A DNA stretch of 64,000 nucleotides from Pseudomonas sp. FP2196 (GTDB taxonomy: Bacteria; Pseudomonadota; Gammaproteobacteria; Pseudomonadales; Pseudomonadaceae). The position numbers and the translations under genes were made by a program. Location of the stretch: the NCBI RefSeq assembly GCF_030687715.1, contig NZ_CP117445.1:1670501-1734500 (forward strand), given 5' to 3'. Of this stretch, positions 1,643 to 5,927 are shown piece after piece; the first letter of the stretch is position 1, and every line of letters begins with the position of its first letter. The notes under the pieces were generated by a model. It saw only the letters and a list, made by a program, of their open reading frames with translations. It was not told the origin of the DNA and did not search any database.

Positions 1643-1999
1643 CTACTGCGGCAATTCCAGATTATTCAGCACCCGATTCACCGCCAGTTCCCCGAGCATG
1701 ATCAATTGCGCAAGGCCCAGCACTGTTCTGCGTTGCGGCGCGGGCAACAGGCGGGCGAAGTCATGGGCGATGGTCTTGGCCGAAGCGAGTGTTTCGCAGG
1801 CATCGAGCAGCAATTCCTCGTTTTTGGTGTCGGCAGTCGCGGCATACATTCCGCGGGTTTTACGGGGCGGCGTGGATCCAGGCGGGCAGAGGTAATGATC
1901 GAGGGCGCGGTCGGCGGCTTCGTTGAGCTTTTTCGAGTCGAGGGATTCGTAGGGGGAGGAGGGGGCGGTTTCAGGCGGGTTGGGCGTGGGTTTGATCAT
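1643..1999 (-). CDS. DUF6124 family protein
   Basis: 118-residue cytoplasmic protein of unknown function. The N-terminus (IKPTPNPPE, then SPYESLDSKKL) and the 'AADRALDHYL' helix are recognisable as the Pseudomonas DUF6124 family; the C-terminal half is helical and ends in LAVNRVLNNLELPQ. No membrane segment or signal peptide is visible. The ATG is preceded by AGAGG at 8-nt spacing. That ribosome site lies inside a CTCTAGAG block which is complementary to a stem of the unusual leader RNA (see 2009-2178), so translation may be controlled by RNA folding. Function unknown; the family assignment is by remembered similarity. Confidence 0.8.
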   Translation of the reverse strand: MIKPTPNPPETAPSSPYESLDSKKLNEAADRALDHYLCPPGSTPPRKTRGMYAATADTKNEELLLDACETLASAKTIAHDFARLLPAPQRRTVLGLAQLIMLGELAVNRVLNNLELPQ

Positions 2000-2008
2000 G
2001 GGTAAAGC

Positions 2009-2178
2009 CTCTAGAGTAGTGAAGCTGCCACCGTTCGCTGCTAACGAAGGAGGTGGCGGCTGTACGCGGGTTAGCAGACCAGGACTCTAGAACCCGGCGC
2101 ACCGAAGTGCCCCACGCAAAGCCGCCATAACGGCGACGGACTTTGTGCGTCTAGAGAAAACCCGGGCTGCTAAACCCG
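2009..2178 (-). promoter_or_regulatory. Highly structured leader RNA upstream of the DUF6124 gene (candidate cis-regulatory RNA)
   Basis: Read on the minus strand the leader contains: P1, 2167-2178 pairing with 2067-2077 (CGGGTTTAGCAG/CTGCTAACCCG); P2, 2150-2156 with 2085-2091 (CTCTAGA/TCTAGAG, perfect); P3, 2141-2149 with 2113-2121, capped by a CCGCC/CGGCG hairpin (2122-2135); P4, 2096-2112, GCAC-TTCG-GTGC with a UUCG tetraloop; and P5, 2052-2060 with 2024-2032, whose loop is TTAGCAG. The P5 loop repeats the P1 5' strand, so it could compete for the same partner. The CTCTAGAG at 2009-2016 holds the ribosome site and is complementary to P2 strands. This is the architecture expected of a switch; ligand and family are unknown. 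Confidence 0.7.
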
Positions 2179-2204
2179 ATCACTGAAAAGTCAGCGACCG
2201 AACC

Positions 2205-2233
2205 ACAATAGAAGCCGCTCCCAAGGCGCACAA
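2205..2233 (-). promoter_or_regulatory. Candidate sigma-70 promoter for the DUF6124 leader
   Basis: On the minus strand TTGTGC (2228-2233) and TATTGT (2205-2210) are separated by 17 bases. Initiation would fall near 2198, about 20 bases before helix P1 of the leader, which fits the structured element being fully transcribed. The boxes are imperfect matches to consensus. Confidence 0.45.
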
Positions 2234-2327
2234 GCCGGCGGATTCTGGCGTAGCTGTAGGCAATTACGCAAGGTCGTGTAGCTTCGGAGAGTGTCTGCCA
2301 GTCTGGTTTAAACGTGGGTGTTTAAAG

Positions 2328-2812: not shown

Positions 2813-3400
2813 TTAGTGGTGACGGGGCTTGAGGATCGCCGGTTTTTCGTCTGGTGCCTGGCACAGCAGGTACAGCGCGGTCAGGGCTTCCGGGATCTGT
2901 ACGATCATGTCGTCCATCAGGTTGGCGTCCTTGGCGATGTCTTCGAACTCTGGCTGTTCGTCGAACAGGCCCGAACCGACCATGATCGGCAGGAGCATTT
3001 CGCTGACTTCTTCTTCGGCGGTTTCGAACCAGGCCGCTTCACGCAGGAACACGCCCTCCATGAAGCCGATGCACCAGCCACGCAGTTCCGAATCGTCCGG
3101 CTCTTCGCCCAGATCCAGTTCGCATGGCAGTTCGAATTCTTCGTCGGACGCCAGTTGGCGGGCGATGTGCGCCTTGAGGCCGATCAGGGTGGCTTCGATC
3201 TCTTCACGCTGTGCCTCGCTGCTGTAATGCGGCTCTTCGGCGAACAGGGCGTCGATCCACTCACGCTCCGGTACGTCTTCTGCGCAGATCGACAGCGCGG
3301 TCAGGTAGCCGTGAGCGGCCACGTAATCCAGCGCCTCGTCATGCAGCTCGTCGGCGTCGAGGAAAACTTGCAGGCGGGTCAGTTGCTCAGCGAAGGACAT
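2813..3400 (-). CDS. YecA/UPF0149 family protein
   Basis: 195-residue acidic, helical protein beginning MSFAEQLTRLQ. The body contains the UPF0149 hallmarks (DALDYVAAHGYLTAL-like opening, GWCIGFMEGV around residue 108, and a C-terminal helix EALTALYLLCQ). It lacks the zinc-binding SEC-C tail found in longer YecA proteins and ends in KPRHH. An upstream in-frame ATG at 3427 would add nine residues; the internal start at 3400 gives the usual family N-terminus. Function unknown; it heads a two-gene unit with the ybaN-like gene. Confidence 0.82.
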   Translation of the reverse strand: MSFAEQLTRLQVFLDADELHDEALDYVAAHGYLTALSICAEDVPEREWIDALFAEEPHYSSEAQREEIEATLIGLKAHIARQLASDEEFELPCELDLGEEPDDSELRGWCIGFMEGVFLREAAWFETAEEEVSEMLLPIMVGSGLFDEQPEFEDIAKDANLMDDMIVQIPEALTALYLLCQAPDEKPAILKPRHH

Positions 3401-3508
3401 TACGGGGCTACCTTGGGGAATAAACAATGCGGGAATTCTAGGCCTTCTTGCGCGCTCAAGCCAGCCGCATGGCAGATTTGCCGCAATTGCCGGGCTGCAT
3501 ACAAATCC

Positions 3509-3797: not shown

Positions 3798-5927
3798 ATG
3801 CTCGAACAGGCTCAACGCGTCCTCAAGGACATCTTCGGCTACGACAGTTTCCGTGGCCGGCAGGGTGCAATCATTGAGCGCGTGGCCAGCGGCGGTGATG
3901 CGCTGGTGCTGATGCCTACCGGTGGCGGCAAGTCCCTGTGCTTCCAGGTGCCCGCGTTATTGCGCGATGGTCTGGCGGTGGTGGTCTCGCCGTTGATCGC
4001 CTTGATGGACGATCAGGTCGCTACCCTTGAAGAGCTGGGCGTGGCTGCCGCCGCGCTGAACTCCACTTTGAGCGCCGAGCAGCAGCGTGATCTGGCGGCG
4101 CGGATCAAGCGCGGTGAGGTGAAGATGTTGTATCTGGCGCCCGAGCGTCTGGTGCAGCCGCGCATGTTGTCGTTCCTGCAAGGGTTGAACATTGCCCTGT
4201 TCGCCATCGACGAAGCCCACTGCGTATCGCAATGGGGCCACGACTTCCGTCCGGAATACCTGCAACTAGGCCAATTGGCCGAGATGTTCCCCGATGTGCC
4301 GCGCATCGCCCTGACGGCCACCGCCGACAAGCGAACTCGCGAAGAAATCGTGACACGCCTGCATCTGCAGAACGCCGAGCGCTTCCTGTCGAGTTTCGAC
4401 CGGCCGAATATCTTCTATCGCATCGTGCCCAAGGAGCAGCCGCGCAAGCAGTTGCTGGCGTTTCTCGCCGAACGACGCAGCGATGCCGGCATCGTCTACT
4501 GCCTGTCGCGCAAGAAGGTCGAAGAGGTCGCGGCGTTCCTCAGCGAACAGGGCTTCCCGGCGCTGCCGTATCACGCCGGCCTGCCCAACGATCTGCGTGC
4601 CTTCAACCAGAAACGCTTCCTCAACGAGGAAGGCCTGATCATGGTCGCCACCGTGGCGTTCGGCATGGGCATCGATAAACCCAACGTGCGCTTCGTCGCT
4701 CACCTCGACTTGCCGAAATCCCTTGAGGCGTATTACCAGGAAACCGGGCGCGGCGGCCGCGATGGTCTGCCGGCGGATGCGTGGATGGCCTACGGTCTGC
4801 AAGACGTGGTGATGCTCAAGCAGATGTTGCAGAACTCCGAAGGTGACGAGCGTCACAAGCGTCTGGAGCAGCACAAGCTCGATGCCATGCTCTCGCTCTG
4901 CGAGGAGACCCGTTGCCGTCGTCAGACCCTGCTGGCCTATTTCGATGAGGAGATGGCCGAACCTTGCGGGCATTGCGACAACTGCGTCGATGGTGTGCAG
5001 ACCTGGGACGCTACCGAGCCGGCGCGTCAGGCACTGTCGGCGATCTATCGCACCGGTCAGCGTTATGGCGTCGGCCATCTGGTCGATGTGCTGCTGGGCA
5101 AGGACAACGAAAAGGTCCGCAGCTTCGGCCATCAGCATCTCTCTGTGTACGGCGTCGGCAAGGCGCTGAGCGAGAGCGAATGGCGCTCGCTGTTCCGCCA
5201 GTTGGTGGCGCGTGGCCTGGCCGATGTCGATCACGAAGGTTACGGCGGCCTGCGTCTGAGCGACACTTGCCGGCCTCTGCTCAAGGGCGAGGTTACGCTG
5301 GAACTGCGCCGCGATCTCAAACCGCAGGTCACCGCCAAAAGCGGCAGCAAGAGTCCGGCCAGCCAACTGGTGCGCGGCGAAGAGCGCGAACAATGGGAAG
5401 CCCTGCGTGCGCTGCGGCGCAAACTCGCCGAAGAGCATGGTGTGCCGCCGTACGTCATCTTCCCCGATTCGACCTTGCTGGAAATGCTCCGCAGCCAACC
5501 GACCTCGTTGGCGGACATAGCTCGGGTCAGCGGTGTCGGCGCGCGCAAGCTGGAACGTTATGGCGATGCCTTCCTCGAAGTGCTCGGCGGCGAAGCGGAG
5601 GCGCCGAAAGTGGTGGCCGACGTGCGTCACGAACTGATCACCCTGGCTCGCGCCGGCATGACGCCGATGCAGATCGCCGGTCAGTTGCAATGCTCGGAAA
5701 AGAACGTCTACACCATGCTCGCCGAAGCTATTGGCAAGCAGCAGTTATCGCTGGAGCAGGCGCTCGACCTGCCGGAAGAACTGATGGGTGAAGTGCAGGA
5801 CGCATTCCTTGATGGCGAGGGCGAACTGCCGCCGGTCGCCGAAGTGGCTGAGCTGTTTGCTGGTCGTGTTCCAGAAGGTGTTCTTTATTGCGTGCGGGCT
5901 GCGCTGCAATCCGAATTTGAAATGTAA
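3798..5927 (+). CDS. recQ: ATP-dependent DNA helicase RecQ
   Basis: 709-residue superfamily 2 helicase acting 3'-5' on DNA in recombination and repair. Visible in order: Walker [11 protein letters not shown] (~residue 44), Walker B DEAHC (~143), the motif '[10 protein letters not shown]' near 315, the RQC zinc-binding cysteines ([17 protein letters not shown] at ~390-400), the HRDC domain (~residues 530-600) and a C-terminal HTH_40-like region ([13 protein letters not shown]). At 709 residues it is about 100 longer than E. coli RecQ, the extra part being the C-terminal HTH-containing tail, as in other pseudomonads. TTGGAG precedes the ATG, and a strong hairpin lies in the leader. Confidence 0.97.

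Follow-up and report, generated by a model that had tools for sequence, protein, structure and literature searches.

A C4-type antisense RNA leader before a DUF6124 gene in Pseudomonas, its chromosomal copies and their pairing codes

C4 RNA belongs to textbook phage biology, and small protein genes silenced by their own antisense RNA, in many chromosomal copies, are familiar from type I toxin-antitoxin systems. In phage P1, C4 is described as being cut by RNase P from a longer RNA and as pairing with its target through two segments, a' and b', with b' over the ribosome site (excerpts of PMC5320573 and PMC8198154). C4 antisense RNA and c4-a1b1 are both listed in a table of PMC2864571. Group 1 small RNAs of Acinetobacter baumannii are reported to be C4-like, with many members per chromosome and variable a' loops (excerpt of PMC5320573). 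Neither a link between C4 and DUF6124 nor a Pseudomonas C4 set was found in the published literature searched, a corpus that leaves most subscription titles outside; one paper in it names DUF3077 and none DUF6124. The excerpts of PMC2864571, PMC5320573, PMC8546580, PMC8198154, PMC12197685, PMC4603805, PMC12189769 and PMC9630843 contain no C4-DUF6124 link.

The leader of the DUF6124 gene

The window, a stretch of 64,000 nucleotides from the chromosome of Pseudomonas sp. FP2196, carries at 1643-1999 a gene for a DUF6124 protein of 118 AA (PF19619; 60.6 bits, cut-off 27). This gene and all parts of its leader lie on the minus strand. The leader matches two Rfam families above their curated cut-offs: the C4 antisense RNA (RF01695; 2049-2132, 68.3 bits, cut-off 45), with its helices P1, P2 (UUCG) and P3, and the c4-a1b1 target region (RF03163; 2159-2211, 50.5 bits, cut-off 46.7). 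Against a model made from the 41 copies of the FP2196 genome, the window copy included, the same C4 scores 75.8 bits. It contains the a' strand (CTGCTAACCC, 2068-2077) and the b' loop (GTTCTAGAGTC, 2083-2093). Upstream lie a1 (GTTTAGCAGC, 2166-2175) and b1 (TTCTCTAGACG, 2148-2158), each with 7 nt complementary to a' and b' respectively, and downstream a2 (CGTTAGCAG, 2038-2046) and b2 (ACTCTAGAGG, 2008-2017), each with 8 nt. The b2 target is on the ribosome-binding site: its core spans -18 to -11 relative to the gene start. Because of the Rfam matches, the P1-type pairings and the position of b2, the leader is, as judged from its sequence, a C4 antisense RNA unit of a mostly catalogued kind and not a riboswitch.

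An earlier sequence-only reading of this DNA had picked out many of these parts under other names. Its perfect 7-bp CTCTAGA/TCTAGAG stem on the minus strand is the pairing of b1 with b', its hairpin with a UUCG tetraloop is helix P2, the TTAGCAG of its terminal hairpin is a2, a competitor for the same partner as proposed, and CTCTAGAGG at the ribosome site is b2. The outer stem exists as a1:a' (GGGTTTAGCAG against CTGCTAACCC) with 10 pairs and one bulged U rather than the 11 continuous pairs announced. Where a promoter had been predicted, no sigma-70 consensus site reaches the scan threshold; a weaker pair can be recognized by eye, with a candidate -35 TTGTGC (2228-2233), found at the same position in many paralogues, and, from its coordinates 17 nt away, a candidate -10 TATTGT (2205-2210). 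The mutually exclusive pairings thought to affect the start of translation correspond to pairings already described for phage P1, a1/a'/a2 on the one hand and b1/b'/b2 on the other. The riboswitch or protein-responsive leader deduced from them is contradicted by the Rfam assignment to an antisense RNA and by the variation of a' and b' together with their target sites.

Further upstream, a box common to many of the 41 units (GCTAC..CCTTGCG..TTGCCTACAGCTACGCCAGAATCCGCCGG, 2235-2282, minus strand, by eye) is perhaps a common activator or operator site. Inspection by eye of the DNA upstream of all 41 units revealed at least two shared box types, ..CCTTGCGCC.TTGCCTACAGCTACGCCAGAATCCGCCGGCTTGTGCG.. 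and ..TTCAGGTTGTCCGTCGGACG.., possibly bound by a common regulator.

The leader (1990-2225, minus strand) folds at -108.5 kcal/mol, against -81.6 +/- 4.8 kcal/mol for shuffled sequences (n=200; z -5.57; all of them less stable). In the most stable fold of 1990-2215 (-100.4 kcal/mol), a1b1 pairs with a'b', while a fold with C4 closed on itself reaches -92.3, i.e. 8 kcal/mol costlier. The two states therefore exclude each other.

The RNA, which the sequence-only reading could not place, is thus already catalogued as RF01695 and RF03163, and the covariation that it had suggested looking for among homologues is found in the C4 helices over the 41 paralogues. In these copies, 93.8% of the cells are paired and 16 of the 27 pairs changed on both sides; cells with change on both sides number 126 compared to 27 in shuffles, and none of 500 shuffles is as high on all five measures. 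With slid structures as a control, 30-40% of cells pair. Helix P3 is the weakest (84.9% of cells paired, change on both sides in one of five pairs). This pattern indicates that the C4 fold is under selection. CCACC, an RCCA-like tail, occurs near the 3' end of 36 of the 41 copies, and the sequence presents a 5' GG and 3' CCACC compatible with RNase P processing to about 77 nt. Conservation as a DNA palindrome for protein binding, which the same reading had named as a refuting case, could fit CTCTAGAG alone and does not explain the family: many b2 sites are non-palindromic and nevertheless match b' (e.g. GGAGACG, GTGTTAGGA, CATCAAGGA).

The next gene is a DUF454 gene (2407-2802), followed by a UPF0149 gene (2813-3427) and, at 3798, by an open frame resembling a helicase; 3-1457 is taken up by a long frame rich in repeats (the last two judged by eye). 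No phage-like features were seen in the 6 kb around the unit. A near-perfect inverted repeat of the GATCGCAGCCTGCGGCAGCTCCTAC kind (2328-2401) separates DUF454 from the C4 unit and resembles a Pseudomonas REP pair. Rfam microRNA matches at 2324-2407 sit on this repeat and were rejected as far below their cut-offs. For isrK, the Rfam scan gave no more than a sub-threshold match in the window. Outside the genus, isrK matches occur near C4 in three loci (L118, L121 and L123) and overlap the a1b1 match in the first two; an isrK-C4 pair is reported for Burkholderia (excerpt of PMC4603805).

Chromosomal copies and the genes behind them

The FP2196 genome contains 41 C4 matches over the cut-off, 42 a1b1 matches at E <=0.001 (19 over the cut-off) and 39 DUF6124 domains over the cut-off. 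A DUF6124 domain lies on the same strand behind 33 of the 41 C4 copies, with 86-236 nt between the C4 end and the start of the domain. Eight copies have no DUF6124 behind them: DUF3077 genes follow C4 in units 9 and 35, a Bro-N gene in unit 38, small frames devoid of Pfam match in units 1, 2 and 3, a small frame in unit 20 and a methyltransferase gene in unit 0, whose targets look decayed and are apparently lost. Conversely, six DUF6124 domains have no called C4, one of them as the second of a tandem; the domain at 3851639 is preceded by a C4 fragment, and about 1.75 kb separate it from an a1b1 match. Four C4 units are clustered on one strand within 15 kb at 3518327-3533180 (L063 4328-19181); they have closely related DUF6124 copies and different b' codes, and unit 22 has an altered end.

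At the DUF6124 loci kept from named genomes (the best 80 of 527 relatives, all Pseudomonas records), C4 ends 46-56 nt before the start codon in 78 of the 80, bearing out the earlier proposal of a structured cis-encoded RNA tied to DUF6124. Of the two exceptions, L304 matches the gene in part and L312 lies at the edge of a contig. Among 119 genomes of the genus, FP2196 included, C4 is detected in 110 at E 0.001 (109 over the cut-off), DUF6124 in 95 and DUF3077 in 93. DUF6124 never occurs without C4: 95 genomes have both, 15 have C4 only and 9 have neither. The C4 and DUF6124 counts per genome are correlated (Spearman 0.89 over the 119 genomes, 17 of which have at least 33 C4 copies each). At the class level, C4 was found in 12 of 229 genomes, FP2196 among them; the remaining eleven have 1-4 copies each. 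When the search model is derived from the 41 FP2196 copies, C4 is detected in 41 of 59 genomes of the family and in 17 of its 19 genera (FP2196 included). Several genomes of other genera of the family have 8-18 copies each, hence the C4 expansion is not limited to the genus. Behind C4 outside the genus, Bro-N-like and other genes can be recognized by eye.

Two genomes, G009 and G102, have many C4 and few DUF6124. Tandem C4 copies about 90-500 nt apart occur in both (G009 C21:16214-16512, C58:321065-321620 and C17:111255-112197; G102 C2:606875-607360), apparently several before one gene.

The window protein has P-N-P-P from residue 6. A P-[ND]-P-P motif is found in the first 16 residues of the open frame of 105 of 132 units, at residue 6 in 103, and such a frame also follows 23 of the 30 C4 loci read in G009 and G102, where the small proteins look largely different behind the motif (MKKIVPDPP and the like). 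The motif is kept as a peptide since its proline codons vary at the third base. Such proline motifs are of the kind that slows ribosomes lacking EF-P, and a ribosome pause beside the start codon might add to the control. The predicted model of the DUF6124 protein (mean pLDDT 73.5; 88-96 in blocks of residues 61-110) has a helical hairpin of high confidence at 58-113 behind an N-terminus that is predicted poorly. When this model was compared with the PDB by Foldseek, no match reached E 0.001 (the best had E 0.97); among PDB sequences, a profile search found nothing at E 1. A likeness to Rop was considered and dropped, no Rop being among the 50 listed of 58 Foldseek matches.

Recognition codes within a genome and between relatives

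When the segments are cut by a simple rule, no b' loop is repeated among the 41 units of FP2196, and 34 distinct a' segments are counted; seven units begin a' alike but differ in b'. Cognate a2 matches of at least 6 nt are found in 36 of the 41 units (five lack them) and b2 matches in 32 (nine lack them). Both reach 6 nt in 29 of the 41 cognate pairs compared to 18 of 1640 non-cognate pairs. The a2+b2 duplex energies, which take no account of site accessibility, average -23.6 kcal/mol for cognate and -14.3 for non-cognate pairs (z -18.6 when units are permuted, with unit 23 re-cut by hand for these energies and cut by rule for the match counts, the syntenic pairs and the cross-talk test). The cognate target is the single best of the 41 for 28 C4 copies; for the other 13 a non-cognate target is as good or better. 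Preference for the cognate partner is strong for a1 (z -13.8) and weak for b1 (z -5.8). The a2+b2 preference repeats on 36 distinct codes taken from the 78 named loci with C4 (best 80 of 527 relatives; z -13.0), a set in which some a' are visibly mis-cut. Where b2 matches over at least 6 nt and the start is called, b2 lies 5-19 nt before the start codon in 25 of 31 units. At limits of 6 nt for a2 and 5 nt for b2, no second target of the window C4 exists among the 41 unit targets, and four other C4 copies reach these limits on the window target. No selection against cross-talk was detected: strong b2 cross-talk amounts to 0.0634 within genomes and 0.0648 with permuted genome labels (P 0.35).

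The FP2196 units were paired with those of three relatives through their flanking DNA, giving 39 reciprocal-best syntenic pairs for 25 units; the relatives of unit 3 are visibly mis-cut in this set, as are some a' in the pairwise energies. Median identity is 89.0% for the flanks, 87.0% for P1/P2, 92.3% for a' and 82.6% for the protein (84.1% in a second alignment). It drops to 53.8% for b', near the level of FP2196 paralogues (50.0%), and b' is less than 75% identical in 33 of the 39 pairs. In these 33 pairs, b2 has a mean duplex energy of -14.4 kcal/mol with its own b' and of -8.3 with the b' of the other member; its own fits better in 32, by at least 2 kcal/mol in 28 and by at least 4 in 26. 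The b' loop and its b2 target have thus changed in concert. The b' median is lower than that of fourfold sites (70.8%; 35 of 39 pairs, P 0.013) and of the spacer (71.1%; 39 pairs, P 0.0006), the pairs not being independent in either comparison; where the proteins are at least 85% identical (14 pairs), the three medians differ little (b' 67.9, fourfold sites 75.4, spacer 71.1). These figures would be consistent with b' changing at most modestly faster than neutral sites.

Such differences could also arise if entire units were swapped by recombination, with no compensated change in place. The C4 unit is indeed more diverged than its flanks, and the b' loop of the window recurs at places that the synteny rule leaves unpaired, twice in the relative G036 and once in G016. 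Because of this recurrence of identical b' loops at unpaired loci, units seem to move, although the rule is strict and some other unpaired cases of identical b' may be syntenic. However, 13 of the 39 pairs remain at least 87% identical in the backbone (P1/P2) and at least 85% in a' while b' falls below 75%, and in these b2 follows the changed b' (-14.0 kcal/mol cognate, -7.9 cross). Change in place is therefore likelier than a swap of units in these pairs, and we regard wholesale exchange as a possible but rather doubtful account of the data. In the same 13 pairs b1 scarcely tracks b' (-15.3 cognate, -14.1 cross).

The locus of the window itself argues in the same direction. Its partner in G016 has the same a1, a', P2 and a2 core, while both b' and b2 differ. 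This is the only one of 29 DUF454 loci of relatives (1.5 kb flanks) with a C4 at the Rfam cut-off, a count to be read with the fact that many of the 29 stretches fail to reach or carry the downstream gene of the window. In G036, a unit with other codes adjoins the downstream flank found in the window, and its coordinates place it about 3.2 kb away from DUF454; a locus without C4 close to DUF454 may therefore still have a unit. By eye, two further loci hold degraded remains of a DUF6124 gene, and neither has a C4 match.

Phage occurrence, proposed mechanism and known systems

C4 alone occurs on a few phages and plasmids. The model detects it in the P. aeruginosa phages PAJU2, PAShipCat1 and vB_Pae_U10 and in an Azotobacter plasmid. 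In PAJU2 and PAShipCat1, 50 nt separate the end of C4 from an open frame, a spacing like that of the window unit, and b2 matches (-16.0; a' is mis-cut in both, so the energy is judged for b2 alone). The gene behind is annotated as the antirepressor Ant in PAShipCat1 and as hypothetical in PAJU2, whereas that of the window is DUF6124. In vB_Pae_U10, C4 lies inside an annotated gene, and both a2 (-14.8) and b2 (-18.9) match. The Azotobacter plasmid is conjugative; its C4 (L468 1500-1586), with a matching b2, is about 0.4 kb from an annotated VapC/Phd pair. The presence of C4 before Ant and Bro-N-like genes fits an origin in phage immunity units. A mobile-element reading of the window gene was dropped: at E 1e-5 its protein matches none of 72,556 plasmid records and a single one of 50,697 phage records. 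In that record (EU982300; L220 2868-3354), C4 precedes the DUF6124-like gene, which is the first open frame; being at the record edge, it possibly belongs to a host flank.

The chromosomal C4 copies might serve to silence incoming phages that carry matching a2/b2 sites before ant or icd, DUF6124 being secondary. A role of this type has been proposed for the C4-like RNAs of A. baumannii (excerpt of PMC5320573), and the gene behind C4 is annotated as an antirepressor in a P. aeruginosa phage, is a Bro-N gene in one FP2196 unit and looks Bro-N-like elsewhere (by eye). Yet in most chromosomal units the gene is still preceded by a2 and b2 that match the C4 of the unit (29 of 41 in FP2196, at least 6 nt in both). 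The extended a2/b2 pair of the window is found in 15 viral stretches, none with a C4 by the model, and this number is, by a rough estimate, that expected by chance; the hits of a further viral pattern scan were likewise chance-like. Moreover, matches to the window leader stay below 80% coverage in all phage records. An anti-phage function as the main role of these units is thus unlikely, although C4 may act in trans in addition to silencing its own unit.

We consider it highly probable instead that promoter, a1/b1, C4, a2/b2 and DUF6124 gene constitute a self-silencing antisense unit. All parts would lie on one transcript, from which RNase P would cut C4 as in phage P1. The a' strand and the b' loop of C4 would pair with a2 and b2, and, by analogy with P1, DUF6124 would be kept untranslated while its cognate C4 is present, because b2 sits on the ribosome site. 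In the competing fold, a1/b1 would pair with the a'/b' of their own transcript, so that C4 could neither form nor act. Absence of the cognate C4 would allow expression of the gene, whether in a cell that has newly received the unit, after C4 loss or following failed processing. A riboswitch or protein-responsive leader, in which a metabolite or protein would shift the folds in cis and no RNA acts in trans, might be read from the two exclusive folds about 8 kcal/mol apart, one of them freeing a1/b1, and from the position of the leader directly before one family in 78 of 80 loci (the best 80 of 527, a set selected through this very family), but is very improbable: Rfam identifies a known antisense RNA, loops expected to stay constant in a ligand pocket vary together with their targets, and in place of a conserved ligand core with the genes of one pathway, several families (DUF6124, DUF3077, Bro-N and Ant) stand behind the same RNA.

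The self-silencing unit could be given a wider meaning. An RNA of phage immunity might have been converted in Pseudomonas into a large set of genes that silence themselves, each under a private key, and this would amount to a test of self and non-self at the RNA level with small proteins of the DUF6124 type as output. If so, a unit would stay off in its home strain and become expressed once it enters a strain devoid of the key; each C4 would recognize chiefly its own a2/b2, and the codes would drift in step. We put this forward tentatively and lean against it, since units seem to move, no sign of selection against cross-talk within genomes was found, b' is at most modestly faster than neutral sites and b1 does not clearly follow b'.

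The RNA class itself is known; what is new is its chromosomal scale, with about forty C4 in the FP2196 genome, and the differing pairing codes. C4 would here be a multi-copy chromosomal control layer on a protein family of no known function. About forty natural and mostly private RNA-RNA codes in a single cell, with compensated changes from species to species, would provide a test bed for the evolution of antisense specificity and bear on the number of separate RNA regulators that one cell can hold. Expression of DUF6124 through removal of its C4 would offer an entry to its function.

Compared with type I toxin-antitoxin systems, in which the antisense RNA is opposite the gene, C4 would be upstream in the same transcript; we know of no toxicity of DUF6124. 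In A. baumannii, a cognate gene with matching a2/b2 is not described for each C4-like RNA in the excerpt of PMC5320573, whereas most Pseudomonas units carry one. The closest likeness is to the C4 of phages P1 and P7 (RF01695; immI operon c4-icd-ant), with the same three-stem fold, the same placement of a' and b', a1/b1 upstream, and a2/b2 before the gene with b2 on the ribosome site. In contrast to these phages, the window unit resides on a bacterial chromosome among ordinary genes, precedes DUF6124 with no antirepressor at the locus, and belongs to a genome with 41 copies and, by the simple cut rule, 41 different b' loops. A c4-icd-ant operon was considered for the window and rejected, the controlled gene being DUF6124 and the neighbours within the 6 kb around it DUF454 and UPF0149. 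By analogy, the window unit would work like a P1-type immunity operon, but it is not one.
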